A stretch of DNA of 26,654 nt from a virus: the IMG/VR virus record IMGVR_UViG_3300006026_000083, positions 1 to 26,654 of that record; one strand, written 5' to 3'. The notes beneath the pieces are model-generated. The model saw only the letters and a list, made by a program, of their open reading frames with translations, had not been told where the DNA came from and ran no database searches. Each line of letters opens with the position of its first letter. Position 1 is the stretch's first letter. Shown in pieces: positions 1-26,498 of this stretch. Both the position numbers and the translations under genes were made by a program.

Positions 1-233
1 TCAATCCAAGATAATGTTCCATGATTGTAGTGCTTTGCACTAGTAATGGTAACTGTACCTTTAGGTGTAGATGGATATACGTTTTGAACTACTGCTCCAG
101 GATACTCATTTTGAAGTTGTTCACCAAGTTCTTTTCTTGATGGTAAATCTCCATTCTCTATAACCATTTCCATATTATAGAGTCTTCCTCTCCAAAGAAC
201 GTCGGCGGTAAAATGTTCACCGACGTTATCTAC
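1..233 (-). CDS. -1 frame extension of the 429-residue gene, partial at window edge
   Basis: Reading on from the heptamer at 233-239 in the -1 frame gives 77 complete codons with no stop before the window edge. The product begins VDNVGEHFTADV and then has LWRGR, DLPSRKEL and EYPGAVV in order. The same order occurs at residues 239-290 of the upstream zero-frame protein (GHLLSVIV, SWRGR, KLPTKKDI, VYPGGRV), so this is a second copy of one short domain. In this frame the nearest upstream stop is TAA at 288-290. Between it and the ATG at 171-173 there is no ATG, GTG, TTG, CTG, ATT or ATA codon, and that ATG lies after the WRGR motif. Independent initiation would therefore lose the start of the domain, and access by -1 frameshifting is the best reading. 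The domain has no function I can name. A frameshift mutation or a sequencing indel is the alternative. The true C-terminus lies outside the window. Confidence 0.7.
198..227 (-). other. 30-base hairpin just downstream of the slippery heptamer
   Basis: On the minus strand AACGTCGGTG pairs with CGCCGACGTT across the 10-base loop AACATTTTAC. That gives eight Watson-Crick pairs, then one U-G, then one G-C. The stem is GC-rich in an otherwise AT-rich window. It starts 5 bases after the slippery heptamer, inside the usual spacing for a frameshift-stimulating stem. It lies within coding sequence of the -1 frame and is followed by CTTTGG with no U tract, so it does not look like an intrinsic terminator. 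Folding energy was not computed. Confidence 0.8.
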
Positions 234-253
234 TTTTTTGGCAGATCTCCTCC
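198..253 (-). promoter_or_regulatory. Candidate programmed -1 ribosomal frameshift signal (dnaX-type)
   Basis: Three elements are seen in the order used by bacterial -1 frameshift sites. GGAGGAG at 247-253 resembles a Shine-Dalgarno sequence. It is followed after 7 bases by the heptamer A AAA AAG at 233-239, correctly phased in the zero frame (codons CCA AAA AAG). After a 5-base spacer (TAGAT, which contains the zero-frame UAG) comes the hairpin at 198-227. Known biology: A AAA AAG with an upstream Shine-Dalgarno-like stimulator and a downstream stem is the arrangement in E. coli dnaX. Inference: the Shine-Dalgarno-like element is stimulatory and not an initiation signal, because no start codon lies at a usable distance behind it. 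The gene starts in this window have much weaker Shine-Dalgarno matches than this internal site. The rival explanation is a seven-A run recorded as six. Confidence 0.72.
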
Positions 254-1519
254 AATAACAATTGTACCAACACTGCCTCCAGAGATATTAACATCTTCTT
301 TTACACAATTAGGAACTACTTTACCATTCTTTTTCTTGGTTCCCTTTGCCTTGTAACCATCCCAGCACTTGCTAGCACCAACGTTGGCGCGTGCTGTTGC
401 CATTTTACCCTCAACATTAAGAGTTTCTGGATAATTTTTATCACCTGGCTTTCTTTTGGGTTTTCCTGCTTTACGTCTCGCATGAATGTTGTCCCAAAGA
501 CCTTTCTTCTCCTCAATTTCTATATCATCACTCTTTGAACACTCACAAGGTGTCTTTTTACATTTGCCGCATTCTTCTTTAAGTTCTACTTCTTCTTTAG
601 TAGTAACTTTAAATAATGGGGAATCAAAATTTGCATGATTGCTAGGAAGATCTGAAGTAGAGAACTGAAGAACTCTTCCTCCAGGATAAACCTTCTCAAT
701 TTCTGCTTGAATATCTTTCTTTGTAGGTAACTTTGCTTGTGGGAAGAACATTCTTAGATATTGTGAACGTCCCCTCCAACTAACAATGACTGATAGCAAA
801 TGACCAAACTCTGAAGGTAGTCTAACTGCCTCTTCTAGTTCAACTTCCTCATTCTGACGCTCTGCTTCTAACTTAGCAGCAATCGCCATTTGGCGGATTT
901 TTTCATCAGACTTACCTTTAAATTGAGGTTTTTTAGACTTACGAAAATCTTTAATTACATCTCCCATGTCTGCTTTTGCAAGATCCATACCTTCTTTTGT
1001 TGTATATCCTGCTACAGCATCTGTATTATGCTCAGTATCAGTAAGTTTTGCTTGCATCCAGGCAGGAAGATTTTTTTCCTTTTTACCAATACTCTTCTTA
1101 ACTTTCTTTAAGTTTTCTTGGGATTTACTAATCTGTTTATGTGCCATGGACACTTCATGATCTTTTTCTTCTCTCTGTGAGAGTAAAGATTCTGGTGTAA
1201 TTAAGTCAATAAATTCTACAAATTTGTTACCAAAAGCATCTTCAATTGTAACTGATTCATCAACATTTGGAATTGGTTTGCAACAGTTTTCTTCAGAGCA
1301 CCAATAGTGCCCATCACTACACCTCTCCTCTCCAAGAATTTTATCTACTAATTTTATTTCTTCTTTCTTAATAGTTGGTAGTCCAACCTTCATAGAAGGA
1401 CGCAATTTTTTATCGGCAACTTTTCTTTCATTTTCATTTGGAGAATCCTTCATAGCAGCAATTCTATTCTGCTTTCTTGCTGAAGAATGTGCTTTAGTAT
1501 CTATATTAAAACTGGCCAT
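230..1519 (-). CDS. Mosaic hydrophilic protein of short conserved motifs, probable virion/late protein
   Basis: This 429-residue, Lys/Glu-rich protein has no membrane segment and no enzyme signature I recognise. It reads as short conserved pieces on flexible linkers. They are a Cys-rich patch (C67, C74, C79, C80), a helical stretch with DHEVSMA (120-126) leading to LPAWMQAKL (151-159), IRQMAIAAKLEAE (208-220), a WRGR/YPG domain (239-290), a second Cys patch CGKCKKTPCEC (317-327), KGLWDNIHARRK (339-350) followed by a KPGDKNYP element, and KCWDGYKAKG...VPNCV (384-406). From memory, similar pieces recur in structural and hypothetical proteins of T4-like cyanophages; I cannot search to confirm. 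The start ATG lies 21 bases after the gp16 stop, behind a late-promoter-like GATAAATA; a GGA 5 bases upstream is the only Shine-Dalgarno match. The stop UAG directly abuts a slippery heptamer, so a longer -1 product is likely. It sits where gp17 usually follows gp16. Specific function unknown. Confidence 0.85.
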   Translation of the reverse strand: MASFNIDTKAHSSARKQNRIAAMKDSPNENERKVADKKLRPSMKVGLPTIKKEEIKLVDKILGEERCSDGHYWCSEENCCKPIPNVDESVTIEDAFGNKFVEFIDLITPESLLSQREEKDHEVSMAHKQISKSQENLKKVKKSIGKKEKNLPAWMQAKLTDTEHNTDAVAGYTTKEGMDLAKADMGDVIKDFRKSKKPQFKGKSDEKIRQMAIAAKLEAERQNEEVELEEAVRLPSEFGHLLSVIVSWRGRSQYLRMFFPQAKLPTKKDIQAEIEKVYPGGRVLQFSTSDLPSNHANFDSPLFKVTTKEEVELKEECGKCKKTPCECSKSDDIEIEEKKGLWDNIHARRKAGKPKRKPGDKNYPETLNVEGKMATARANVGASKCWDGYKAKGTKKKNGKVVPNCVKEDVNISGGSVGTIVIGGDLPKK

Positions 1520-1540: not shown

Positions 1541-1969
1541 CTATTTATCGTTTAGTCGCTTTTGATTTTTTAAATATTTAGATAACTCATCTGTAGATCC
1601 AAAAAATACTGCATTGTTAGTAACATTTGTTGTCTTCCCTTTGGGATTTTCCTCATCAAGTTCTTTCATCTTCTTTTGAAGATCTACTATTTTGTCCGTC
1701 GCATCTGATACATTTTTAATTAATTGTGCAACAACTTCATATGCTCTTGGTTGTCCACCATCAACAGCAATTTCTAAAGCACTATCAAGTGCTTCTTGAC
1801 CCTTTTCTATAATTGAATATAAATTTCCTCTGGTATATTCATAATCTTTAGTAATATCTTCATTAGGATCTTTTATAGGAACTATTTTATCTTTTCTTTC
1901 TTTTTTTCTCTCTACTATATCAGCATCAACGTTAAAAGTTGAATTTAAGTCATCGAAGTGTTCTTTCAT
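1541..1969 (-). CDS. 16: Small terminase subunit gp16
   Basis: The 142-residue product resembles T4 gp16 (164 residues), the small terminase subunit that oligomerises, recognises DNA and regulates the gp17 packaging ATPase/nuclease. The order of conserved elements fits: an acidic and basic N-terminal arm, DYEYTRGNL (42-50), a long helical stretch that continues as a predicted coiled coil (about 49-105, including PRAYEVVAQLIKNV), and a C-terminal TNNAVFFGSTDELSKYL (117-133). T4 gp16 has an equivalent NATVFMGSPTEL. The ATG lies 5 bases after the gp15 stop, so the two genes are almost certainly co-transcribed and probably translationally coupled. There is no strong Shine-Dalgarno sequence. In T4 the next gene is gp17; here it is replaced by a mosaic protein, which is unusual. 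Confidence 0.9.
   Translation of the reverse strand: MKEHFDDLNSTFNVDADIVERKKERKDKIVPIKDPNEDITKDYEYTRGNLYSIIEKGQEALDSALEIAVDGGQPRAYEVVAQLIKNVSDATDKIVDLQKKMKELDEENPKGKTTNVTNNAVFFGSTDELSKYLKNQKRLNDK
1542..1549 (-). promoter_or_regulatory. Late-promoter-like motif GATAAATA upstream of the 429-residue gene
   Basis: The minus strand reads CGATAAATAG, overlapping the gp16 stop codon and ending 22 bases before the downstream ATG. It matches 7 of 8 positions of the T4 late promoter consensus TATAAATA, which is read by the phage sigma factor gp55 with the sliding clamp. The same octamer occurs upstream of gp8. In AT-rich DNA such matches arise by chance, so this is suggestive only. Confidence 0.4.
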
Positions 1970-8400: not shown

Positions 8401-11400
8401 GATTTGAAGGTACATTTGGGTTTGGAATAAAGAATGATCCTTTTATAGAACCAATACTATCAGTAAATAACCTTACATTTACTACTTCTGCCTCTCCATT
8501 AGGACCTCTTAGCCTCATACCTGGAACAATAAATCCACGATACAGTGATTGATTGTTTTCTGATAGTGATCTAGTGTCAACGTTCAATAATATTGAAGAA
8601 CTTGAATATTCTGCTGGTACTATATAATTTTGATCATATGGACTCTCAACGTAAACATCACTAGGATTTGATATTGGTCCGTATTTGTGGTTTGACTTTG
8701 CTACTCTAAATTGAATTCTTGGTAAAGATCTACCAAAGAATAATCTTCTTCCTCTAAAAAATCTTCCTCTTCTTCCAATTCTTGTTCCTCTGACAAGATC
8801 ACCAACATTAAAAATTCCCCTAATCATTCTTATTTCGATTAGTTTTGGAACTATAAATTGATTTACATCCTGCTCATCAAAAAATCCATATAATCTTGTA
8901 AAAGGTTTGAATCTTCTTGCAGTAAATTCTATATTTCTAGATCTCATGAAAGGAATAACAGAGGTGTTGACAACTCTGTCTCCCTCACTCCTAGTTTCAA
9001 CTTGTTCAGATACTCTTAGTCTTTTACCATCTCTTTGATCAAAACCAGTTTGTGTTGTAGTGGTTACAGTTGTTGTTGTTACATCTCTAACATCAGTTCT
9101 AACAGTACCCCTTCCTCTTCTTATATTACTTTGATTTCTCCAATTACTTCTAGTAGTTGATGATGTACTCGTAGAAGTGGATCCAGTCCAAGTAGTTTCC
9201 CAAGAACCCCAAACAATTGGACCGAGACCAGTTTGTGCATCATAACCAGCATATTCTAGTTGTAATCTTGTTTGGGTATAATCATCTGATGTTATTGTTT
9301 GTGGTCTTAATCTAGTTTGATCAATCCAGATATCAGATGATGGGAATAACTCAATTGTACCCGCATAAGTAGTAACTAAATACGGAGTCACATTTTCAAC
9401 TCTTGTTGCAAATGGATTTTCAACTATTACTTCATCAGTATAATCTAATGTTAGTAATTGTCCAGTTTTTCTTATATTTGATCCAATAAGATCATCCACA
9501 AATTCAGAATCTGCAACTGTACCTGAAGTAGTTCCAATGCCAAGTAAAGATCTTCCACCCAAAAGCAAATCAATTTGTGTAGTAAAGTGAGAAGGTCTTA
9601 GTTCTAGATTTACTGGATCTATACTGTTAGTAACCCTAGAACTCTTAATTTGCGTTTTTCTAGTACTAAAATTATCAACATATATTCCAGATTTAAACCT
9701 TGTTAGTCCATTTGAATCTGGAATTGTTAGTGATTCTGCTTTTGACTCTAAAAGTGACAATGCAGTATAGTATTCTAAATTATTAACTCTCTGTTCTAGT
9801 TGACCAACATCCTCCATTCTATAGCGTTTATATTTGTTTAATTTTATTTCACAATCATCAATATCACACAAATATGGTGGTATTGATATAGTAGCTACTT
9901 CAAGAGCATCTTCTATAGGTATTGGTGGCAAAGGATCTTCTGAAGGAACTCCATTTAACAACTGAAATTCTCCAGTTTTTAATAGGAACAATTTATCAAT
10001 TCTTGCCAAGTAGTGAGAATATGTTAATCTTATAGATTCATCTGATGCAAGAATATTTTTTGCAGAATTATTTGAGTCTGAAAATTGTCTTGAAGTAAAT
10101 TCAAATGGTGATAGTTGTGAATTTGAATTGAATGGTAATACCCTTGGTCTAATATCAATAATGTCTGAGGTTCTGACATCATTTTTTACACTTAATAAGT
10201 CACAATAATCAAACTGAGAATAAGAATTGGCGGTTGTAATATCACCATTTTCAGAAGAAGAAAACTCTCCAGATTCGAAAATAACTTTTATCTGATTTTT
10301 TGGACTTTTGGAATTTTCCTTCCTAATGATTCTAGAATAATCACAAATAGTATCTCTTTGCCCAGAATCTAAAGTGTATCTATCTGTTATATTTGTGGAT
10401 CCTTGTCCAATGTCTGAAATTGTTCCTAAAATATTGCTTTTTTCTGATCTTACTGTCTCACCAATAATAAATGCAAGATCGCTTAAATAAACTATAGATA
10501 TTTTTGAAGAATTTATATTTTCTACATAAATTGCTTCAGCTTCAGAAGTTTCTCCTTTAATCACTTCAGAAATAACTAAATCATCAGTTCTACCAGTTTG
10601 ACCATTTAAATTTGCTAATGTTAAAGAAGGTAATACAGGTTCAAATGTATCTGAAGATTCAAAAATAGCATATACTTTAGTTACATCAGGTTCTAACAAG
10701 CAAATTTCTTTATCCTGAACTCTTAGACCATAACCATAACTTCCATATTCTAGTCCATCATCTAAAGTCGTACTTCCAATACCAGAAGAAACTGATGTAG
10801 ATTTATTTACAATAATAGAGTTTGCTCTATTAGCAGTTTTTGTTCTACTAGTGACTCTATTTTTTGATAATGTTGCTATAAGTCTTCCAGGTCCATTGGT
10901 AGACATTCCATATATGGTGATTGATTTTGATCCATCACCATATATAAATTTATCGCCTGTCAATACTTCAAAATCACCATTAGAATTTATTAATACATAC
11001 CTTTCTTCATCGAATGGTAAAAATGCTTCATCGGATTCACATTGAATTGTATTAGTAACATTCTGATTTATTACTAAATTAAATTCTTTTCTAATTGTAA
11101 TTTCTGATTCTGTTAAATCAACATTAGAAATATATTTTTTTGGTAATGGTGTATATAAAGTATTATCTGTAGATGATTGCAATTTTGTTCCAATCAAACT
11201 AAAGTCCAATGCAATAACATCAGAAGAAGAAGGCATTAAACCATAATTTATTCCTGTTACTTCAGTAACACTTGTAATTCCAATAGTATATTCATCTGTT
11301 ATACTTACTACTTTACCATAAGTTTTATATTCTGGAGACACTAATCCAGTATTTGTAAATGATACATAGTCTCCAACTTTAAATATTTTATCTAGTTGAA

Positions 11401-14792: not shown

Positions 14793-14800
14793 TATTTATC
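14793..14800 (-). promoter_or_regulatory. Late-promoter-like motif GATAAATA upstream of gp8
   Basis: The minus strand reads TGATAAATAAATAAAC across the stop of the 3899-residue gene. GATAAATA and an overlapping AATAAATA each match 7 of 8 positions of the T4 late consensus TATAAATA. The motif ends 29 bases before the gp8 ATG, leaving room for a short leader. This is the longest intergenic gap in the window, which favours a promoter, but base composition makes chance matches common. Confidence 0.45.
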
Positions 14801-17800
14801 AGACAAAATACCCATCATATTTTAGTGGGAGTTTTCTACGCAAAATTGGGTTTGTTCCTATACCAGATTGATTTTCAGAGAATGCAGTAAATGGTTTTGC
14901 TCTAAGTCTTCTTGTTAAATCAACTTTACCCCAGACATAATTGCCAAACAATTCTACACTATTAAAACCAGTATTACTTGGATTCTGCCCAGGAGCTAAA
15001 TTTGACAGTATAACAATAACATTTTTAACTGTAGTTGTTATACCAACAGGTAATCCAGATATTCCAGATGGTATTGTAACTATTTTTTCTGACCAATCAT
15101 AGCATTGAACTACCATATCAGTAAAAATAGTTGATATTCCAACTGGATCTGGTAAAGGTCCAGTTTGTGCAGTAAATCCAGAAGGTAAAGAAACTCTACC
15201 TCCACTTGGATCTCCAAATACAGTATGTGTAATATTAAAATAATCTCCTGTAGTTATACCAACATCATACACTCCATTCTTTCTTAAATCCGAATCCATA
15301 GGAATAAATAAATCTAGTCCAAGGAAATATTGATTTGTTGATTCTGAAATTCTAGACGTGTCAAAACCAACTATTACTCCATAATCACCATAATAATTAA
15401 CAAAAATTGATTCCTCAGTATTTCTCCATGGTGGTGCAATTAAAATTGGAGGTGGTTCAATTTCATTTACAATAAACTTTATAGAGTTTTCTAAAGGCCA
15501 TCTTCTATAAGAACTTGCAAGACCAACGTTATCATAAACTTTAAGTTCTAATATATCACCAACAGAATAATTGACTCCCTTATCATTAATTGATGTTAAT
15601 GATGTAATGGAAGTTTCTGAATTGACCGATATATCTACGGTTGCATTTCTTCCAACACCAGTTACCGTATGTAATTTTGCACTCGTCATTATGGTTTCGC
15701 CACCAAATAAAGGTGGAAATCCAGATCCTTGAGAATAAATTGATAGTGTCTTTATTGGTCCATTGTAATAATTTGTTCCCCCATAACTAACATTCACACT
15801 ATTTACAGAAGATCCCGACATTAATGCAAAAGCAGTTGCTTGAGATCCATCTATAAATGGTTTTTGTATAGTTATTTCTGGTGCCGCTGTGTACCCAAAT
15901 CCAGGATTTGTAACATTTATACTATCAATTGTACCATTTGTATTTAAAACTACCTCTGCTTCTGCAGAAATGAGTTGATCTGTAGGTATAATCTCAATTC
16001 TTCTTTGTTCTGTTGGTTCTATACCTTCTCTTGAAATATTGAACAGTGATGTATCAAAAACATAAACATGTTCTGATGTTATTGCAATACTATTGAGTAT
16101 ATTTGTAGTTGGATTTATTATTGGTTCATAATAAACTCTATCTTTACCAATAAAACTATTATCGATTATTATATCTTGTTCTTGCTTAATCCAACTAATA
16201 GGTCTCTCATATAATTCATCTAAAACAACACCAACATTTGCATAATTATTAGTAATAATTGTATCAGCTGACTTCACATCTACAACAAGTCTTTCTTCTT
16301 GAGTAAGGTTGGAATCTACATCACTAAAAATCTGTACATTATCTCCTACTTTTACTGAAGGTAAAACTCTTACAAGTCGAACATCAATTTCTGATGTTCC
16401 AGTATATGCTAAAATCTTTACAGTATCACCAACAGTACTAAATCCAACTAATTGACCTTTAGGTGCTTCTGTAAATCTGATTCTACTTCCACCATTAAAC
16501 TGATAACCTTCTCCTGGAGTTTGTAGTACATCATTTACAAATACCAATAGATTTGACTGTAAACTAATTCCAGAACTAGTTTTTGCATAGAATGATATAT
16601 CTTCACCATCTATCTGTAATGGGAATAATCTTCTTACTCCATTAAAATATTTGGAAATATCATCCAATATTATAAATTCACCAACGTTCCAACCAGAGAA
16701 CTTTGATCTGAATACTTCTGTAACGTTTAATTCAAAATGTTCAAAATTTGATATGCCAGTTAATGTTGGTATGCCAACAGTTCCCCCAATAGAGACTGTA
16801 AGTAAATCATTTTCATTATATCCATATCCATAATTTTTAATCTCAAAAGAACGTATTGTTCCATCATTACTTGGAACCAAATCTACCGTTGCTTCTGTAC
16901 CAATTCCACTAGAACCTTGTGAATATATTAATGGCAAATTTGTATAACTTAAAGGTGCATCAAAAATAACTTCTGGTGGATTTGATTGATCATATCCTGA
17001 TAGAGAATTAGTTATGTTTACAGAAGTTACATATCCACCATTTACTACAGCTTCTCCAAAGTACACAATTGTATCAGAATCTGTTCTTACACCAACTTTT
17101 ACTGTTTGTAAACCAGATCTATATCCAGATCCAGTGTTACCAATAGCAACAGAGGTAAGAACGCCTAACGGATTAATTATTGCTGTTCCACCAGCACTTA
17201 CTAGTGGTTGATATCCAAATCCTTCTGTAGATCCTACGCTAACTATTATACCACCTTTTGGTAAACGATTTACATTTACATCCTTAGTTATTGTTGGGTC
17301 TGTTGGATTCAAGTTAAATCCTACTTTTAAATTTCCACCATCAACAAAAAGTTTGTAGTCTCCATAAATGCTGTATTTTGGAGTGCTTATTCTTTGAGGT
17401 CCTTGGAATATACCATCAATTAAAAGAATTGTATTTGTGTAAGGGATATTTGTAATATTATTTCCCTCATAACTTAAATTGAATGTTGTTGATATACCAT
17501 TAAATTGTGTAGTAATATCATCATAAACATAGTTATTATCATATGCTTTGTCGAAATCGTTAGTGTATAAAAAGTTAAGTGCGGATCTTAAAAACACTCT
17601 CCCACTAAATTTTGAAGATGTGGTCAATCCAGTATAGTCAATTTCATTTGCAGATGTTGCAGTAGTTCCAAATCCTACAGGTATTTTGCCCCATATTCCC
17701 TCTGAGAAGTTTAAATTATTACCAACAATATTAAAATTACCAGAAAGTTTTGATATTATTTGATTGGAATTGTGAGTATCCTCTTTTGTTCCAACTACCG

Positions 17801-20800
17801 ATCTATCAACATTAATTTGATTGAGTGATTTATTTACAGATTTTACCAACACAATCTCATTATCAATTTCTAGTAAATCTCCAGACTTAATAAAGTCGAT
17901 AGTATTTACTGATATATTTGTATCACCAATTCCAATAGAACTTGAAGTTGCTATAGTATATCCAGATCCAACAAGTGGTGATTGAATAGCTCCATTTATT
18001 GTTATAAGTAGTCTATTATTTGCATCAATAGATCTAATTCTATGAGTAACTCCAGCACCAACTCCTACAATATCTACTCTATTTGGGTTAAATTGTAAAG
18101 AATCACCTACTGTTGCTGCTATACTTATTTTCTGATTATCTTCCTTAATAATATAGAATCTGGAAGGTAATCTTGATGTTATTCCTATTCCTGGCCAATT
18201 AATTGGAGATATTTGTATTCCATTGTTTGGATTTTCATCGTGTGGTATGTATTCAACCTCCTCACCACTAACGAAGTAGTGATTTCCTAAGTTTATATTG
18301 TTTTGATCTACAAGCACTACATTAGAGTCTGTTCCATCAAATTCAACCTCAAATATTGGATTATTCTTTTCAAAAATCCCAAATGATTTAGTGTTAGAAT
18401 CAAACTGATCACTAATATCATCTATAGTTAAAACTCTGTTACCTATAAATTCTCTATACTCTGCCAAAAACGGTAAATTAAAAAGTATCTCATTAGATAC
18501 AAGAGATTCATCTACTTTAATACTCTTTTCTCTGGCAATATCAAAATCTTTAACTGCATTAAGATTCACTGATTCTGTGAGATCTGATATTGCAACAACA
18601 ACGTTATCATCTTGTTCTGTTGGCATTCTATAAAGATCATTATCAGATGGTTCCAAAATCAGATCACTGAATTTTTTAAATCCAACAGTATGTGTTAAAT
18701 TACTAACCAGAGGATTCCAAACAGTAAAATCTAATGGAGATTTTACCGAATATGAAAAATATTGATAATAATCATTGTCAGACAATCTTTGGAAAAATGT
18801 ATTTAACTTACCAGTTTCTTTTTTCCATCCCTCTCTAACTATACTGCTTGAAGATACTTTGTAATCTCCTTCAGATCCAAAGGCTGATGATATTAGTGCC
18901 AGATTTTTTGAAGATTGACCATAAATTATATCTCCAGGTGAGAATTTTTTATTGGTTCTAATTTTTATATACTCATTGTTCTGGTCATATCTTTCCACAA
19001 CTCCAACATTGTCTTCATATATGACTAATTCATTTTCATTAAATGAACCCTTTTCTAGGGTAATATCAAAGATTGGAAAATATGATTCTGGTGTTGCTGT
19101 ACCAAAAGATTCAAATTCATCATAAACTCCTGGAGATTCACCAACTTTAAGTACATCTGATATATTATATACAATAGAAGGAAACTCGCCACCGATGTTT
19201 GGATCTGATTGCTTAACTTTAAATAGAGAATATCCATATGATGAAGAGTTATAACCCTTTCCGCCAATATTTAAATCAATATTAGTATTTTCAATGATTA
19301 CATTATCACCAACATTAAATGGAAAGTCTGAAGCATTTGCAAAAGTAACCGCAAATGCGACTGTAACATCATTAGTAATGCTATCAAACGTAATATTACT
19401 AATTCTAATTCCATTTGGATTATTTACTGGTAGTATTTTTGGTGTAACATTGTATAGCCCAGTAGTATTTCTAATAATATTTACTTCAGTATCTCCAATA
19501 TCATATCTAAGTCTTGCTTCAGTATTAACTCTTCCAGTGAATCCATCAATAACAACTAATTGTGGAGGTACAAAGTAATTTGTACCGAAAGATGATATTT
19601 TTATCTTTTTGAATTTTGATAACGGTTCTATTTTATATGTACTTGGGAAAATTGCAGATGGTCTTAATGTTTTATCTGAAGGATAGTCTAATCCAAGATT
19701 TAATAATTTTATATTATCTATCTTACCAATTGACTTTGAAAATGGTAAGAAAATAGCTCCAGAACCCTGTGAAGATACTACTTTAGTAACATAGGGTAAA
19801 GTTCTATAGTTTCTTCCTTGTGATACTAAAGAGACTTCTGCTATTGGACCAGTACCATAAATGGATTTGTATGTAATTATTCCATCATTTTCACTATATG
19901 AAGATTGTTCTGGATCAGAGTCTAGTGGTATTATAAAAGATGTGGTGGTTATTCCAGATATATTTGATTTACCAGAATATACACTATCAAGAATTTGTAT
20001 TGAACTAGAGTTTTTTATATTACTAAAATCTACCTTTAAATTTAACTTTGTTACTGGAGTATTTGGTAGATTGATAGGAGTTAACTTATAGTAAAGTGTT
20101 TTTGGAGTATCAGAGTCTATTTTTATTTGAACATAAGCTCCATCAGAACCAATGTCCCCAACATAAGTTACATTGAAGGTATCTGTTTTATCTGAAGAAG
20201 AATAATACTTATTTGTGAAGTTAACATCAGTATAAAATTCAAATTTAAAAGATGGGTCTTCATTATATTGCAATGATCTATCAGATAGATCAAATATTAT
20301 ATTTTCATTTTTATAAAATTTCAATTCTGGATTTATAAGAGATATTGATCCATCTTGTTGAGATCCAATATTTACTAATATTGAAGAATCTAACTCAGAT
20401 ATATCGGAATAATACTTTGTAGATAGTGCAATCGTATTAGAATTTATACTTATAATATAATAAATTCCAGAATTTATTAGTCCGATTGATGGACTTTCTG
20501 AATTATAAATTACCTTATCTCCAGTTTTAAATTGGTGGTTATTAATGGTTATTGTATTTAAATCAATATCTACATCAGAAGAACTAAATTCAGTTTTATT
20601 AACTAAGGTTCTATAAACTAAATTATCATAAGATACTTTTATTGTTCTAGTTTTATTGCTGGACAAAGACAAATCTATTTCATTTCCAGCAACTAATCCA
20701 TGAGGTGATTTTGTTATTATATTAGCATATTTTTTTACAATGCTAGATTGAATGACATCATCCCTATTTGTTTTTAGTTTTTGATTATTTCCTACTCCAT

Positions 20801-23800
20801 AATCATTATATTTAATCAATTCAAAAATAGATTCAGATCCAATACCAACATACTGGTTTGTAGATCCTATAGAAACTTTTTGTGTTGATAAACCAATATA
20901 ATGATTAGAATAAGGTACAACGTATAAAGAATCAACATCAGTAAGATCTTTTGTTGTTGCTGCATAAGATACATTTATTGGAGTATCTGTATCATTTATT
21001 ATATAAGATACTTTATCATTCAATATAAATTTATGATTTGGTAAAAATATTGTATTTGGTATAGTATCTTTTGTTTTTACAGGATCCAGTTCTGGAACAT
21101 TTACATACAATAGTCCACTCTTACCCTCCGAACGTTGAAGGGTGGAAGCATAATTTTCGTAGTAAAGACTTAAATTTTCTCTCTCAACTTGAGCTCCCCA
21201 AATATAAAATGTTGGAGTTGAATTTAGGGTAAATCCTGCTGGACCGTAAGTACCAACTCTAAAATTGTGTGTCCCCGAAGAAGTAAGTTGCTTAAATGTA
21301 TATCTTCTATACGTATTTGTTAAAGTTACTAATTGACCATAATATAAAATTCCATCATCAACTATTAAATAGACAGATTCTCCTCCTTCTTCACCCTTCA
21401 AAAATACCGAGAATACATTTTCTTCATTCGACAAGCTTACTCCATTATATCCATATAAAAAATAATCAGAGTTTCCTGTAGTATTTGCGATACTAATTTT
21501 AGCTGCTTCTTTTTTATTTTCTATAGGAGATTCTTGTAAATAATCAATAGATCCAGTGATATTGGCATCATCTTCCCAAGGAGTTCCTGGTAACTGTGAT
21601 GATGAAATTGGATAAGAATATTCTAATAAATTCTCAGAATCTATTATAATAGATTCTTTAGGATTAAAATAATATTCAGAATTTGTATTGTATGATTTAT
21701 CTGTAGATAATCCAGTATTAACTATTACTTTTCTTGGTAATTCCTCAATAATATCACCAGAAGAATGTGTAGTAGAAATTGATCCAGCATAAGATCTTTC
21801 TATTTTTACAGTATAATTTTTACTGTAAATATTCAAAATTTTAAACAATTCTTCATTTGATTTATATATATCACCAATAGATATTACAGATGTTAAGTCT
21901 CCATTGACTTTTAAATATGTGACTATGCCAGTTTGTGAAGAATTTTCTAAATCATTTAAAATAGTTAATCTATTACTCTTCTTAATTTCTAATGATTTGA
22001 CAGGACCAATAAATTTTGTTGATATTATATTACAATTATCAATAATTGGTATATCCTGGTTTGTTATATCTATAAAGTGACTAGAAATTCCTAAGTAATT
22101 ACCATCAGTGTCTAATCTAGAATATTCAAAATCTGGATAAGTATCTTCACTAAATGTAATAGTACCTATTTCCCTACCACTAACCGATTTTACAATGGCA
22201 AAGGCATTACTTCCAAAAGTTCCTTCATTATTAAAATAAATTTCATCGCCTGCCGCATAATTTTCACCACCTGAGATAATATCTAGTTTATCTACAGAAC
22301 CAGAACTAGTATTAGTTATTTTTGGAAGTACATTTTTAAATGTTTCTGGACTTACCAACCCATCATAGAATGTATTATCTTTAGAAAATCCAAAATATGA
22401 TGTAAATCTAAACCAATTATCACTATCTACAGATTTTCTAGATAAATTTGAAAAATCTTCAAAATTATATGGTATTGGTTTTGAATTAAAAGAATTTCCA
22501 ATTACATAAGGAAATATTGGTTTTAAAAATCCATTATATGGACCACTAGACTCTTTAGTGGTATTAAAAGTTGAAAAATATGCATATACTCCGTTTGGAA
22601 ACTCTGGAGTTTTACAAAATCTTCCGTTATTAATATCCAAATCTCCAGCATTAGTAAATACATAATCCTCAATAAAATATCCAGTTGGAAAAATGCTTAC
22701 TGGTGGTCTATTCTCCACTATTGGTCTTAATTCATATCCACTACTCAACTGTTTAATGGCACCACCTTCAATATTTTCATATCCATATGGACCATATATT
22801 GGATTTCCATCATATGCCCATCCAACTATGGGAGAGTGATATTTGATTGTATCCGAATCGTTAAGTAAATCTTGTTTAAATATTGGATTTCCTTCATTAT
22901 CTAAGGATGATGCCAAACACTGCTCTCTAATTCCTCTTGGAGTAAATCCATGACCATAAGATAATTCTTTGGTAATATCTTTTGATTCATATATTATTCC
23001 ATCATCATCATTTATTGATGATGTACTGAAAAGTTTTTCGACCAAATTTAAAGTCCAAGATTGGATATTGACATCAAAAGATACTCCAAATCCATTAGAA
23101 ATTACTTCTATGAAAGTATCTTTCGTATATCCAAAACCTCCATTCAGAATAGTAACTGATTGTATTCTTCCATTAATTATAACAGGAGTTAAAATTGCAT
23201 TAAATCCATCACCATAAATCTTGATCTCTGGGGCAGAGTTATAATTTGAGCCACCATCAATAACTGTTACTTCAATAATTCTTCCATCACTGGAAATAGT
23301 TGGTAATAATTTTGCATTTTCTCCATTGTATACATTAATAGTTGGTTTTCTATTATAATTGACAATAGAATTATCACCATATCCACTACCAGGATTTTTT
23401 ACTGAAGTTGAAAAAATTTCTCCAGTAAAGATAGGATTTAATTTTCCAGTAAATGTTTGACTACTAACAGTGTTTATTCCTATAGGAGCTTCAACTTTTA
23501 CTATTATTGGTGTATATGATACTCTGTGTTGACCACTTCCAAAATCTGAAAATGGAATACTTAATTTATTGTTGTAATTAAAGTCTTTATCAAAATCTGT
23601 TTGAAGTACTTCATATACTTTAAATTCATCATCATTTACTCTTCTTACAAAGTATTCTGATGTTGATGATAATCCTGTAGGAAGAACACCATCACTATTA
23701 AAAATTACTACTTCCTTATCTAAAAATCCGTGATTTTTTATTTTAATTGTATCAAAATTCTTATTAATATTGTTTGAATTAAAATATAAAATTTTATTTG

Positions 23801-26498
23801 TATAGTTTTGTCCAGAATCCAAAACATCAACAGAAGATATACTGTTTTTTGCAGTTACTGATGTGATTTTATGGATACCATCTCCATAAGATGAAAATGT
23901 TATGGTGTTTATTCCAGAAACAGATTCTTCAAAACTATTATACAATTTTGCAGTTATTCCATCATTTGAAGTAATGTAATATATTGATCCATCTACTAAT
24001 CCACCAACAGCATCTTGATTTAGAGTGTTATAAATAACAGCTTCATAATTTTTAAATCTATTGAACTTTTTAAAGTCTATAGTGCCAGTAGATAGATTTA
24101 ATTGATTATATAAGTTAGATGCGTTGAAAAACACTTCATTCTTTTTACTGGATAAATTGCATTTTACTTTTGCACCAAAACCATTTCCACCACTAATGGT
24201 AACAATTGGTTCTGATTCATATCCAAATCCAGGATCGATTACATCAACTCTTTTTAGACCACCTCTAACATTAGCAGTTACCAGAGCGTCTGTCCCAAAT
24301 CCAGAAGAACCTCCTTCCCCAACATTATCTACAATTTCTATTTTGGGTGGATTTATAACATCATAATTAGAATCTCCTGGAGAAGATACAATAACTTCTA
24401 CAATTTTCCCATAAAAAACTGTATCGGTAGATTTATAATTTAATAATTCTATTCCATTTAAAAAGCACCCAGTAGACCCAGGACTTGTAATTTTCTCAGT
24501 ATCTAGTGCTTCATTTGTTGGAGAATTGTATTTTCTTATTATGTCTTGTGGGTATAAAGTTTTATTATAAAATTTTGTAAATATAAGCTTATTATTAGTT
24601 GCCGTTCCAAATAGACTTAAGAAATTTTCGGATCTAATATTTGATCTACTGGAAGCTAATTTTATAGTGCTATCATTAACTCTCTTTATAAAATATTGAC
24701 CTTCTGGTATGTTAAATCCAGAATTTCCATCATAAGTGTAATATATAGAATCACCACTAAGAAATGGATGATTTCCAATTATCAATTCTTCAGTTGGGAC
24801 TGGTAATACCTTTGAAAATTTTATTGTTAGTGTATTATCACCAACATCTCTTGATAGATAACTTGGTAATTGTGAAGAAGTTATATAAGTATCATCTTTA
24901 TCAATATAAACATTTTGAATGTTACTAGAAACTATATTTAAGTTGGAATTGAAAAGAAATTTTGGTTTAGAAATATTTCTTTTGATAGTATATTTTTTAT
25001 TTGTATCCAAAGAAGCAGTAATATTGATATCAAAAACTCTTTTATTTGAAAAACTTATAACAAAATTAGAATACTCTTCTCCAGAACTACTGTTTAATGT
25101 AAATACATCTCCTGCCCTAAAAAGATTATCATCAAAAGTTTCTACTCTATATTGAGAAATCCCATTTAATTTTTCCGATACTTTAAATAAAGACTTAACA
25201 TTATATGTTGGACCAACATTTAAAAACCAAGTATTGTGGATTTGTTTTGTACTTTCTTTCCCCAATGCTGTAATATTAACATTGTCATCTTCCTCATAAA
25301 AATAACTTTCTTCTCTATCATAACTAATATCTCCAAGAACACCCCTTACCCTTACTGTTATTATCTCATCATTATCATTGAATGAATATGCAAAATGATT
25401 ATCTAATATATTAGTACCAGATTTTATATCCACTGGTAAAGTTAAGTTAAAAAATTGATTATCATTTTTTCCATTATATTCTACTTTAGTTAAAACACCA
25501 TTATTATAAAACTCAATAAAACCAGAGTCATCAAATCCTAAAGTAGAGTCTACATCCAAATATGTTTGTCCAGCAACTGCATTATCAGTAACTTTTGTTT
25601 TGGCATGAACAGAAAAATTGAAGAATTCTATATCTGGATTATAGTCTAATGTTAATGAATAAAATTCTGCACCTTCACTAATAACAAGCTCTGATGTTAT
25701 GATAGTAGCAAAAGCACTTTTCTCTACACCATTAACGTCTTCGAACAAGGTTCTACCAGCAAGATCCAGAGGATCTCCTTCATAAGGTTCAACAACAATT
25801 TTTCTTGTTACTCTAAAGTCAGCATCTGATGATTGAATTAGATAATCTCTTGGTTTTATTATTTTACTTTCTACACCCCATACAATATTGAATAATATTT
25901 CAAATGATCTATCAGTTCCCCTTGAAGAATAAAAATCCTTAATTCTAGATACTAATATTTTTTCATTTAATTCTTGATAAAAATCAATTTCTTCAAATCC
26001 AGGTGTGTATTGTGATTTGAATTTTTTATATAACTCAAATAAAAACAGAGCATTTAAATTATATACAACAGTATTTGCTGTATGATCTTTTTTAAATGAA
26101 GTGGAAAATTTGAAATTGTCTTTGGTATATCCAGTTATACCACTAAATCCTCTTTTACAACCCAAAAATTCAGTCTTTGTTTTTTTATCATAAAATATAA
26201 TTTCATCATCAATTTTAATTAAACCATTTTTAAAAGGAAATCCATCAGTATTTGTAACACTAATTGACTTTGAATTTGCAACAATATTAGAAGATAATTC
26301 AGTGTAAAATACAAGTTCAGATATATTCTCTAGTTTTGTGTAATCATTAATATTATTGAGAATATTTGTTGGACCACCAGAGAACTCTAAAGACTTATAA
26401 TAATCCTTTAAGAGTTGTATGAAGTCCGAATAAGACTCTTTTACGTAAGATGGTTGCTGATCTGTGACTAAATTTTGAATTTGTACTCTATTTTTCAT
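14799..26498 (-). CDS. Giant multidomain baseplate/tail structural protein with YHYH domain
   Basis: At 3899 residues this fills 44% of the window. The N-terminus has PSYVKESYSDFIQLLKDYYK (17-36) and a helical part ending IKDFYSSRGTDRSFEILFNI (186-205), a start seen in large tail proteins of T4-like marine phages. After that it is a mosaic. It has IDDE-type modules near 75-147, 1524-1586 and 2851-2917. NHxF-type modules lie near 574-616, 821-882, 918-993, 1809-1894, 1984-2056 and 2738-2819. Glycine-rich units lie near 703-779, 1019-1146, 1396-1444, 2219-2286, 3082-3240 and 3509-3652. A YHYH domain spans about 1197-1335 (VGWAYDGNPIYGPYGYEN), a carbohydrate-module-like beta domain about 1633-1791, and NGVxQxP modules about 2986-3050 and 3273-3369. 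It ends RRKLPLKYDGYFV. It sits directly before gp8, the slot of T4 gp7, but shows no recognisable gp7 sequence. A wedge initiator or side fibre-like role is inference. The ATG lies 4 bases after the preceding stop. Confidence 0.88.
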   Translation of the reverse strand: MKNRVQIQNLVTDQQPSYVKESYSDFIQLLKDYYKSLEFSGGPTNILNNINDYTKLENISELVFYTELSSNIVANSKSISVTNTDGFPFKNGLIKIDDEIIFYDKKTKTEFLGCKRGFSGITGYTKDNFKFSTSFKKDHTANTVVYNLNALFLFELYKKFKSQYTPGFEEIDFYQELNEKILVSRIKDFYSSRGTDRSFEILFNIVWGVESKIIKPRDYLIQSSDADFRVTRKIVVEPYEGDPLDLAGRTLFEDVNGVEKSAFATIITSELVISEGAEFYSLTLDYNPDIEFFNFSVHAKTKVTDNAVAGQTYLDVDSTLGFDDSGFIEFYNNGVLTKVEYNGKNDNQFFNLTLPVDIKSGTNILDNHFAYSFNDNDEIITVRVRGVLGDISYDREESYFYEEDDNVNITALGKESTKQIHNTWFLNVGPTYNVKSLFKVSEKLNGISQYRVETFDDNLFRAGDVFTLNSSSGEEYSNFVISFSNKRVFDINITASLDTNKKYTIKRNISKPKFLFNSNLNIVSSNIQNVYIDKDDTYITSSQLPSYLSRDVGDNTLTIKFSKVLPVPTEELIIGNHPFLSGDSIYYTYDGNSGFNIPEGQYFIKRVNDSTIKLASSRSNIRSENFLSLFGTATNNKLIFTKFYNKTLYPQDIIRKYNSPTNEALDTEKITSPGSTGCFLNGIELLNYKSTDTVFYGKIVEVIVSSPGDSNYDVINPPKIEIVDNVGEGGSSGFGTDALVTANVRGGLKRVDVIDPGFGYESEPIVTISGGNGFGAKVKCNLSSKKNEVFFNASNLYNQLNLSTGTIDFKKFNRFKNYEAVIYNTLNQDAVGGLVDGSIYYITSNDGITAKLYNSFEESVSGINTITFSSYGDGIHKITSVTAKNSISSVDVLDSGQNYTNKILYFNSNNINKNFDTIKIKNHGFLDKEVVIFNSDGVLPTGLSSTSEYFVRRVNDDEFKVYEVLQTDFDKDFNYNNKLSIPFSDFGSGQHRVSYTPIIVKVEAPIGINTVSSQTFTGKLNPIFTGEIFSTSVKNPGSGYGDNSIVNYNRKPTINVYNGENAKLLPTISSDGRIIEVTVIDGGSNYNSAPEIKIYGDGFNAILTPVIINGRIQSVTILNGGFGYTKDTFIEVISNGFGVSFDVNIQSWTLNLVEKLFSTSSINDDDGIIYESKDITKELSYGHGFTPRGIREQCLASSLDNEGNPIFKQDLLNDSDTIKYHSPIVGWAYDGNPIYGPYGYENIEGGAIKQLSSGYELRPIVENRPPVSIFPTGYFIEDYVFTNAGDLDINNGRFCKTPEFPNGVYAYFSTFNTTKESSGPYNGFLKPIFPYVIGNSFNSKPIPYNFEDFSNLSRKSVDSDNWFRFTSYFGFSKDNTFYDGLVSPETFKNVLPKITNTSSGSVDKLDIISGGENYAAGDEIYFNNEGTFGSNAFAIVKSVSGREIGTITFSEDTYPDFEYSRLDTDGNYLGISSHFIDITNQDIPIIDNCNIISTKFIGPVKSLEIKKSNRLTILNDLENSSQTGIVTYLKVNGDLTSVISIGDIYKSNEELFKILNIYSKNYTVKIERSYAGSISTTHSSGDIIEELPRKVIVNTGLSTDKSYNTNSEYYFNPKESIIIDSENLLEYSYPISSSQLPGTPWEDDANITGSIDYLQESPIENKKEAAKISIANTTGNSDYFLYGYNGVSLSNEENVFSVFLKGEEGGESVYLIVDDGILYYGQLVTLTNTYRRYTFKQLTSSGTHNFRVGTYGPAGFTLNSTPTFYIWGAQVERENLSLYYENYASTLQRSEGKSGLLYVNVPELDPVKTKDTIPNTIFLPNHKFILNDKVSYIINDTDTPINVSYAATTKDLTDVDSLYVVPYSNHYIGLSTQKVSIGSTNQYVGIGSESIFELIKYNDYGVGNNQKLKTNRDDVIQSSIVKKYANIITKSPHGLVAGNEIDLSLSSNKTRTIKVSYDNLVYRTLVNKTEFSSSDVDIDLNTITINNHQFKTGDKVIYNSESPSIGLINSGIYYIISINSNTIALSTKYYSDISELDSSILVNIGSQQDGSISLINPELKFYKNENIIFDLSDRSLQYNEDPSFKFEFYTDVNFTNKYYSSSDKTDTFNVTYVGDIGSDGAYVQIKIDSDTPKTLYYKLTPINLPNTPVTKLNLKVDFSNIKNSSSIQILDSVYSGKSNISGITTTSFIIPLDSDPEQSSYSENDGIITYKSIYGTGPIAEVSLVSQGRNYRTLPYVTKVVSSQGSGAIFLPFSKSIGKIDNIKLLNLGLDYPSDKTLRPSAIFPSTYKIEPLSKFKKIKISSFGTNYFVPPQLVVIDGFTGRVNTEARLRYDIGDTEVNIIRNTTGLYNVTPKILPVNNPNGIRISNITFDSITNDVTVAFAVTFANASDFPFNVGDNVIIENTNIDLNIGGKGYNSSSYGYSLFKVKQSDPNIGGEFPSIVYNISDVLKVGESPGVYDEFESFGTATPESYFPIFDITLEKGSFNENELVIYEDNVGVVERYDQNNEYIKIRTNKKFSPGDIIYGQSSKNLALISSAFGSEGDYKVSSSSIVREGWKKETGKLNTFFQRLSDNDYYQYFSYSVKSPLDFTVWNPLVSNLTHTVGFKKFSDLILEPSDNDLYRMPTEQDDNVVVAISDLTESVNLNAVKDFDIAREKSIKVDESLVSNEILFNLPFLAEYREFIGNRVLTIDDISDQFDSNTKSFGIFEKNNPIFEVEFDGTDSNVVLVDQNNINLGNHYFVSGEEVEYIPHDENPNNGIQISPINWPGIGITSRLPSRFYIIKEDNQKISIAATVGDSLQFNPNRVDIVGVGAGVTHRIRSIDANNRLLITINGAIQSPLVGSGYTIATSSSIGIGDTNISVNTIDFIKSGDLLEIDNEIVLVKSVNKSLNQINVDRSVVGTKEDTHNSNQIISKLSGNFNIVGNNLNFSEGIWGKIPVGFGTTATSANEIDYTGLTTSSKFSGRVFLRSALNFLYTNDFDKAYDNNYVYDDITTQFNGISTTFNLSYEGNNITNIPYTNTILLIDGIFQGPQRISTPKYSIYGDYKLFVDGGNLKVGFNLNPTDPTITKDVNVNRLPKGGIIVSVGSTEGFGYQPLVSAGGTAIINPLGVLTSVAIGNTGSGYRSGLQTVKVGVRTDSDTIVYFGEAVVNGGYVTSVNITNSLSGYDQSNPPEVIFDAPLSYTNLPLIYSQGSSGIGTEATVDLVPSNDGTIRSFEIKNYGYGYNENDLLTVSIGGTVGIPTLTGISNFEHFELNVTEVFRSKFSGWNVGEFIILDDISKYFNGVRRLFPLQIDGEDISFYAKTSSGISLQSNLLVFVNDVLQTPGEGYQFNGGSRIRFTEAPKGQLVGFSTVGDTVKILAYTGTSEIDVRLVRVLPSVKVGDNVQIFSDVDSNLTQEERLVVDVKSADTIITNNYANVGVVLDELYERPISWIKQEQDIIIDNSFIGKDRVYYEPIINPTTNILNSIAITSEHVYVFDTSLFNISREGIEPTEQRRIEIIPTDQLISAEAEVVLNTNGTIDSINVTNPGFGYTAAPEITIQKPFIDGSQATAFALMSGSSVNSVNVSYGGTNYYNGPIKTLSIYSQGSGFPPLFGGETIMTSAKLHTVTGVGRNATVDISVNSETSITSLTSINDKGVNYSVGDILELKVYDNVGLASSYRRWPLENSIKFIVNEIEPPPILIAPPWRNTEESIFVNYYGDYGVIVGFDTSRISESTNQYFLGLDLFIPMDSDLRKNGVYDVGITTGDYFNITHTVFGDPSGGRVSLPSGFTAQTGPLPDPVGISTIFTDMVVQCYDWSEKIVTIPSGISGLPVGITTTVKNVIVILSNLAPGQNPSNTGFNSVELFGNYVWGKVDLTRRLRAKPFTAFSENQSGIGTNPILRRKLPLKYDGYFV
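21125..21600 (-). other. Carbohydrate-binding-module-like beta domain in the 3899-residue protein
   Basis: Residues about 1633-1791 show a run of motifs typical of jelly-roll modules in phage tail proteins: a strand with AAKISIANTTGNSDYFLYG, ENVFSVFLKGEEG, VYLIVDD, TNTYRRYTFKQLTSSGTHNF, then FYIWGAQVERENLSLYYENY. The 'FSVFLK ... Y-R-R-Y-T-F ... IWGAQVE ... Y' order resembles CBM4/9-like or concanavalin-like domains. Family assignment is from pattern memory. Binding to a host surface glycan would fit its place in a tail protein but is inference. Confidence 0.6.
22490..22905 (-). other. YHYH domain in the 3899-residue protein
   Basis: Residues about 1197-1335 contain KYHSPIVGWAYDGNPIYGPY followed by YELRP, PTGYFIEDYVFTNAGDLDIN, NGRFCKTPEFPNGVYAYFST and FPYVIG. 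This is the Tyr/Asp/Gly/Pro-rich signature of the YHYH family, in which a 'GxAYDGxPIYGP' core, an acidic-Tyr middle and a 'CxTPEFPxGxYxYF' end are conserved. The domain occurs in bacterial secreted proteins and phage structural proteins; its biochemical role is not established to my knowledge. Confidence 0.8.

Follow-up and report, generated by a model that had tools for sequence, protein, structure and literature searches.

The sequence analysed here, hereafter the window, is the whole of a 26,654-nt stretch of viral DNA, corresponding to positions 1 to 26,654 of the IMG/VR record IMGVR_UViG_3300006026_000083. On its minus strand, gp13, gp14, gp15 and gp16 lie upstream of an open reading frame of 429 aa on the same strand, and gp17 is the next gene in complete relatives, a gene position corresponding to T4-GC 119 of cyanophage genomes in the P-HM2 annotation. 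At a distance from this locus, positions 14799-26498 hold a 3,899-aa ORF with a YHYH domain (PF14240), presumably encoding a giant virion or tail protein. The features at the end of the 429-aa ORF and around it are as follows:

1541..1969, minus strand: gp16, terminase small subunit, the upstream neighbour
230..1519, minus strand: zero-frame ORF of 429 aa, product ending ...GGDLPKK, located between gp16 and, in complete relatives, gp17
247..253, minus strand: GGAGGAG, Shine-Dalgarno-like stimulator, 7 nt before the heptamer (spacer ATCTGCC)
233..239, minus strand: slippery heptamer A_AAA_AAG in zero-frame phase (CCA AAA AAG), covering the last two sense codons of the 429-aa ORF
230..232, minus strand: zero-frame stop UAG immediately following the heptamer; independent relatives have TAG, TAA or TGA at this place
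198..227, minus strand: hairpin with a 10-bp stem (one G-U pair) and a 10-nt loop, beginning 5 nt after the heptamer (TAGAT)
1..239, minus strand: -1 frame extension from the heptamer, KK VDNVGEHF...LSWI, a domain matching phrog_1742, with DUF6321 after it in related contigs
171..173, minus strand: first ATG of the -1 frame, within the conserved domain and so not plausible as an independent start

Read along the minus strand, the order of elements is GGAGGAG-ATCTGCC-A_AAA_AAG-TAG-AT, followed by the hairpin AACGTCGGTG...CGCCGACGTT, whose arms occupy 227-218 and 207-198. A preliminary description of this DNA had reported the in-phase heptamer with UAG next to it, the 5-base spacer and 30-base hairpin, and GGAGGAG 7 bases upstream, and had read them as a dnaX-type programmed -1 frameshift site unlikely to have arisen by chance; all of these elements are observed on the minus strand at the positions then given. 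Folding of the 45 nt that follow the heptamer gives -16 kcal/mol, with about -15 to -16 kcal/mol for the stem, a 66-nt segment at the site has a folding z of -2.67, and in a comparison with 5,292 coding-strand segments of the window the 40-nt segment at the site exceeds 99.8% of them in stability. An in-phase A_AAA_AAG occurs once among the window's 8,726 codons, where 1.9 copies would be expected from codon use, while the bare word occurs 8 times versus 15.7 expected, i.e., more rarely than by chance. The heptamer alone therefore constitutes no evidence; what counts is that it is in phase, that it sits at the stop and that the other elements surround it. A chance heptamer was considered and rejected, given that the word, although not rare, stands in phase only once. 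The joint chance of all the elements at dnaX-like spacing is very low. The site also meets the X_XXY_YYZ heptamer test, being in zero-frame phase and near the end of the zero-frame ORF, as well as the published rules for a hairpin starting 4-10 nt after the motif with at least 7.6 kcal/mol and for a Shine-Dalgarno-like element at 6-17 nt, the distance of GGAGGAG being counted there as 8 nt (PMC4066793). Rfam contained nothing relevant at the site.

The -1 frame had been described as open to the window edge and as lacking a start codon ahead of a recognisable domain, and both statements hold. The window stops 77 codons into the extension, which in related contigs ends 164 codons past the junction (...INKALRRWNCR), and no ATG, GTG or TTG occurs in this frame ahead of codon +22, which is already inside the domain. 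The preliminary description had missed that the -1 frame of the intact gene runs on into DUF6321 (PF19846). This part lies outside the window and was scored on the -1-frame product as completed from a related contig, reaching 45.5 bits against a Pfam gathering cut-off of 28.5. The zero-frame and -1 parts match the N- and C-terminal parts, respectively, of the same families, phrog_28131 and phrog_727, indicating that the shifted product corresponds to a full-length protein of the ordinary kind. The first domain of the extension was modelled, with low confidence (mean pLDDT 66.5), as strand-strand-helix-strand; searches of the PDB by sequence and by fold gave no significant match, and no Ig-like Pfam family was found in the shifted frame.

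The same junction was found in seven other IMG/VR contigs from separate metagenomes. The length of the A-run, for which six versus seven had been proposed as a point to check in raw reads, is six in 8/8 assembled contigs, the window included, which represent four haplotypes. Although about 10% of sites differ between haplotypes, heptamer, stem and GGAGGAG are kept, and from -20 to +75 around the heptamer start the divergent haplotypes display two changes compared to about 9 expected; both fall in the loop of the hairpin and are synonymous when read in the -1 frame. Over 492 nt of the -1 frame, comparison of L007/L037 with L005 yielded 29 synonymous and 13 non-synonymous changes (dN/dS about 0.11), whereas the other two frames of the same stretch gave dN/dS values of about 2.5 and 2.8. 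Judged from these substitution patterns, the -1 frame is evolving as protein, under purifying selection. In one contig of the window clade (L004, 1330-1350), another A-run of the gene has lost one A (AAAA, where L036 has AAAAA), which breaks the frame; unlike the heptamer, this one-base loss is limited to a single contig.

The frequency of the heptamer among relatives was judged only from peptide-based searches, which are blind to it; the large sets of relatives fetched with a pattern containing AAAAAAGT were not used for this purpose. In nearly all relatives from the peptide-based searches DUF6321 is read in the zero frame. The lineages from these searches with DUF6321 out of frame are the window clade, L113 and L156, and all break at A_AAA_AAG plus a stop, as do the later additions L231 and L302. 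The hairpin of L113 is weak, and L302 carries, around 10340-10790, an extra segment of ~55 aa between the heptamer and DUF6321. The preliminary description had held that relatives with simply one continuous frame would refute the frameshift. This is borne out in part, as most of the distant relatives are continuous without the heptamer, but the independent frame-breaking relatives all break at A_AAA_AAG plus a stop, and comparison with relatives supports the dnaX-type reading.

In a second shift class, first found as L151 and L155, the -1 frame encodes a C-terminal module of an unrelated kind (phrog_7595, MPCNKPK...). This class comprises L151, L155, L207, L235, L239, L243, L322, L435, L465 and L490, with TAA, TAG or TGA as the zero-frame stop. 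A -1-frame stop lies directly before the heptamer in L155, L235 and L322, so that the frames could be joined nowhere but at the heptamer, and within one codon of it in L151, L435 and L490. Of 17 shift-class sequences, 14 have a hairpin that begins 3-8 nt past the heptamer, and the stem AAGGCA-GARA-TGCCTT is found right after the site in most members of the MPCNKPK shift class; in three shift-class relatives (L207, L239 and L243) no hairpin was found and the hairpin rule of PMC4066793 is not met. The test of signal conservation is met in the window clade, in L113, L156, L231 and L302, and in the MPCNKPK class. Three further viral contigs matched by the same search pattern (L266, L306 and L308) also have an ORF ending in KK-stop, with open -1 frames of 749, 69 and 60 codons, and L306 and L308 look like tail-assembly chaperones. 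A genome scan with the fused MPCNKPK protein returned 22 lower-similarity loci in assorted bacterial MAGs, for which titles and matched stretches, rather than junction-by-junction inspection, suggest stand-alone modules.

In sister phages the MPCNKPK module is read in the zero frame, and A_AAA_AAG is still present at the junction, a reversed polarity that the preliminary description had also missed. This set consists of L317-L321 from the peptide search and, after the pattern search, 47 sequences in all. The heptamer occurs in 5/5 of the sequences from the peptide search, in which it was not selected for, and in 42 of the 47 a ribosome shifting to -1 would read GTC TGA and terminate; the downstream hairpin is mostly absent in this class. 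The new-frame test is thereby met in two ways, by a selected protein in the window clade and by an early stop in the reversed form. A tree of the module, which is short and has poor resolution, places about five changes of polarity, of which at least two fall on well-supported branches. Reversed dnaX arrangements, with a zero-frame stop directly after the site, have also been described, and according to the same review a single change can reverse the roles at near 50% efficiency (PMC5009743). The reversal of polarity is suggestive, though no proof, of the two forms being produced in similar amounts, neither of them as a trace product.

The sequence upstream of these junctions is unusually uniform. 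Every shift-class junction (13/13) and almost every reversed-class junction spells the linker EEVEI as GAA GAG GTT GAA ATA, and the upstream codons in sister-phage junctions are fixed as GAAGAGGTTGAAATA, a spelling present in 0/23 control junctions, which have the EEVEI linker before an in-frame DUF6321 without the heptamer. Codons beside the linker vary (GAA/GAG 26:21 and 25:22). Shared recent descent could contribute to this uniformity. In these other lineages GAGG is located 17 nt upstream, at the edge of the 6-17 nt range, and the GGAGGAG of the window clade is a different upstream element, closer in.

Based on the data presented above, we consider it very probable that this locus uses a dnaX-type programmed -1 frameshift to yield 429-aa and ~593-aa forms of a low-abundance virion protein. 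Ribosomes reaching CCA AAA AAG would have tRNA-Lys in both the P and A sites, with the hairpin holding the ribosome from the front while GGAGGAG, behind it, pairs to 16S rRNA, and a fraction of them would re-pair one base back, on AAA AAA. Slipping on A_AAA_AAG depends on the host having only one tRNA-Lys (UUU), which would read both AAA and AAG. Unshifted ribosomes would stop at UAG to give the 429-aa protein ending in DLPKK, while shifted ribosomes would read GTA GAT AAC... and add 164 aa, consisting of the small alpha/beta domain and DUF6321, for a predicted product of ~593 aa. The ribosomal shift itself, the ratio of the forms and the role of having two of them are inferred. There is no protein-level evidence, and no fusion peptide has been seen; the predicted tryptic junction peptides are ...DLPKK / VDNVGEHFTADVLWR. 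None of the cultured phages found here has the shifted arrangement.

The same two proteins could also be obtained if RNA polymerase slipped on the A-run and added one A, the long form then resulting from ordinary translation, and Thermus dnaX uses A-runs in this way (PMC5009743). Known runs for polymerase slippage are longer, however, with nine A's in Thermus (PMC5009743) and n > 7 quoted elsewhere (PMC3711429), whereas the run here is only six, in several lineages. Moreover, polymerase slippage needs neither the phase and final G of A_AAA_AAG nor the hairpin, the Shine-Dalgarno-like motif and their spacing, all of which are kept, and we consider transcriptional slippage an improbable source of the long form. 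It is also conceivable that two separate genes are present, the downstream part being translated on its own from a non-standard start or by re-initiation, with GGAGGAG serving to bind the ribosome. The homologous domain is indeed a separate gene with an overlapping or adjacent ATG in S-SCSM1, S-T4 and S-SZBM1, and an ATG is found at codon +7 of the -1 frame in the MPCNKPK class. In the window clade, however, the first ATG, GTG or TTG falls inside the domain; in L113, L156 and L231 it falls at codon +59 to +65, inside DUF6321; relatives have the downstream parts joined in frame to the upstream one; and separate genes would leave the conserved heptamer and stop unexplained, leaving very little room for this possibility. 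Finally, a sequencing or assembly error, or a disabling one-base deletion, in a true or ancestral run of seven A's would fit the continuous frame that seven A's would give, the continuity of most relatives and the lone loss in L004, but error is rejected because eight contigs keep six A's, and the four haplotypes, the purifying selection on the -1 frame, the frame break at the same heptamer in independent lineages with three different stop codons and the restriction of the L004 loss to a single contig make either version scarcely credible.

Homologues of the protein are annotated as virion or structural proteins in several phages, including S-SCSM1. ORF137 of S-CREM2, which carries DUF6321, was detected in the virion by four unique peptides (PMC10665884), and the related proteins S-SZBM1_191, 192 and 194 are absent from the virion list of S-SZBM1 (PMC9146016); the virion evidence for homologues is thus mixed. 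In some cultured cyanophages DUF6321 and the small domain are separate neighbours, and in others they are fused (L001, L002, L525). The interval between the terminase genes is highly modular. The role inferred for the frameshift is to supply a low-copy virion protein in two versions, with and without the C-terminal module.

Among phage genes, frameshifting has been described in those for tail chaperones and coat proteins, and this kind of recoding is already known from dnaX and from the coat extensions of T7, T3 and A2. The site resembles that of E. coli dnaX (tau/gamma) in having the same A_AAA_AAG, an upstream Shine-Dalgarno-like element and a hairpin a few bases downstream, and the reversed relatives (AAA AAG TCT GAG, with GTC TGA in the -1 frame) share with dnaX a short product ending one codon after the shift. 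It differs in that the gene encodes a phage virion protein rather than a polymerase subunit, in that the long form in the window is the shifted one, and in the varied C-terminal modules found behind the same type of site. In T7 gp10B, T3, Lactobacillus phage A2 and Listeria A118/A500/PSA, a frameshift near the gene end gives a fraction of a virion protein a C-terminal domain (PMC5009743). The arrangement proposed here is alike in extending part of a virion protein pool C-terminally, but those are coat or tail-shaft proteins, whereas this is a minor protein between the terminase genes of T4-like cyanophages, with a DUF6321 or MPCNKPK module and not an Ig-like domain. Lambda gpG/gpGT likewise yields short and long forms of a late phage protein by a -1 shift, but the gene is unrelated, its place in the gene order and its site are different, and gpG/gpGT is absent from the virion (PMC5009743), in contrast to the homologue found in S-CREM2 virions. 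The T4-GC 119 and DUF6321 proteins of the cultured phages (P-HM2 PHM2_112, DSL-LC02 and S-CREM2 gp137) share the gp16-gp17 position and the C-terminal DUF6321, but in those phages DUF6321 lies in the zero frame and no shift is needed to read it.

In the literature, we found no paper on DUF6321 and no description of frameshifting in T4-like cyanophages, in this gene or in cyanophage virion genes. As far as the literature consulted shows, both the gene and the phage group are new for such recoding, and so are the swapping of unrelated modules behind a single junction type and a polarity that reverses within one phage gene family. One consequence is that cyanophage annotations cut such proteins short or miss the C-terminal part. 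More broadly, related viruses appear to rely on this slip for attaching or omitting exchangeable tail pieces. The occurrence of the same heptamer in both polarities before unrelated modules represents a natural experiment suggesting selection for a mixture of two forms. We somewhat favour, without holding it firmly, the wider proposal that this family of T4-like cyanophages has, in the gene for a minor virion protein located between those for the terminase subunits, a portable junction consisting of a Shine-Dalgarno-like motif, A_AAA_AAG and a stop, and that recombination swaps unrelated modules behind this junction while small indels flip which product is the shifted one, both forms persisting under selection for a mixture of tagged and untagged protein.
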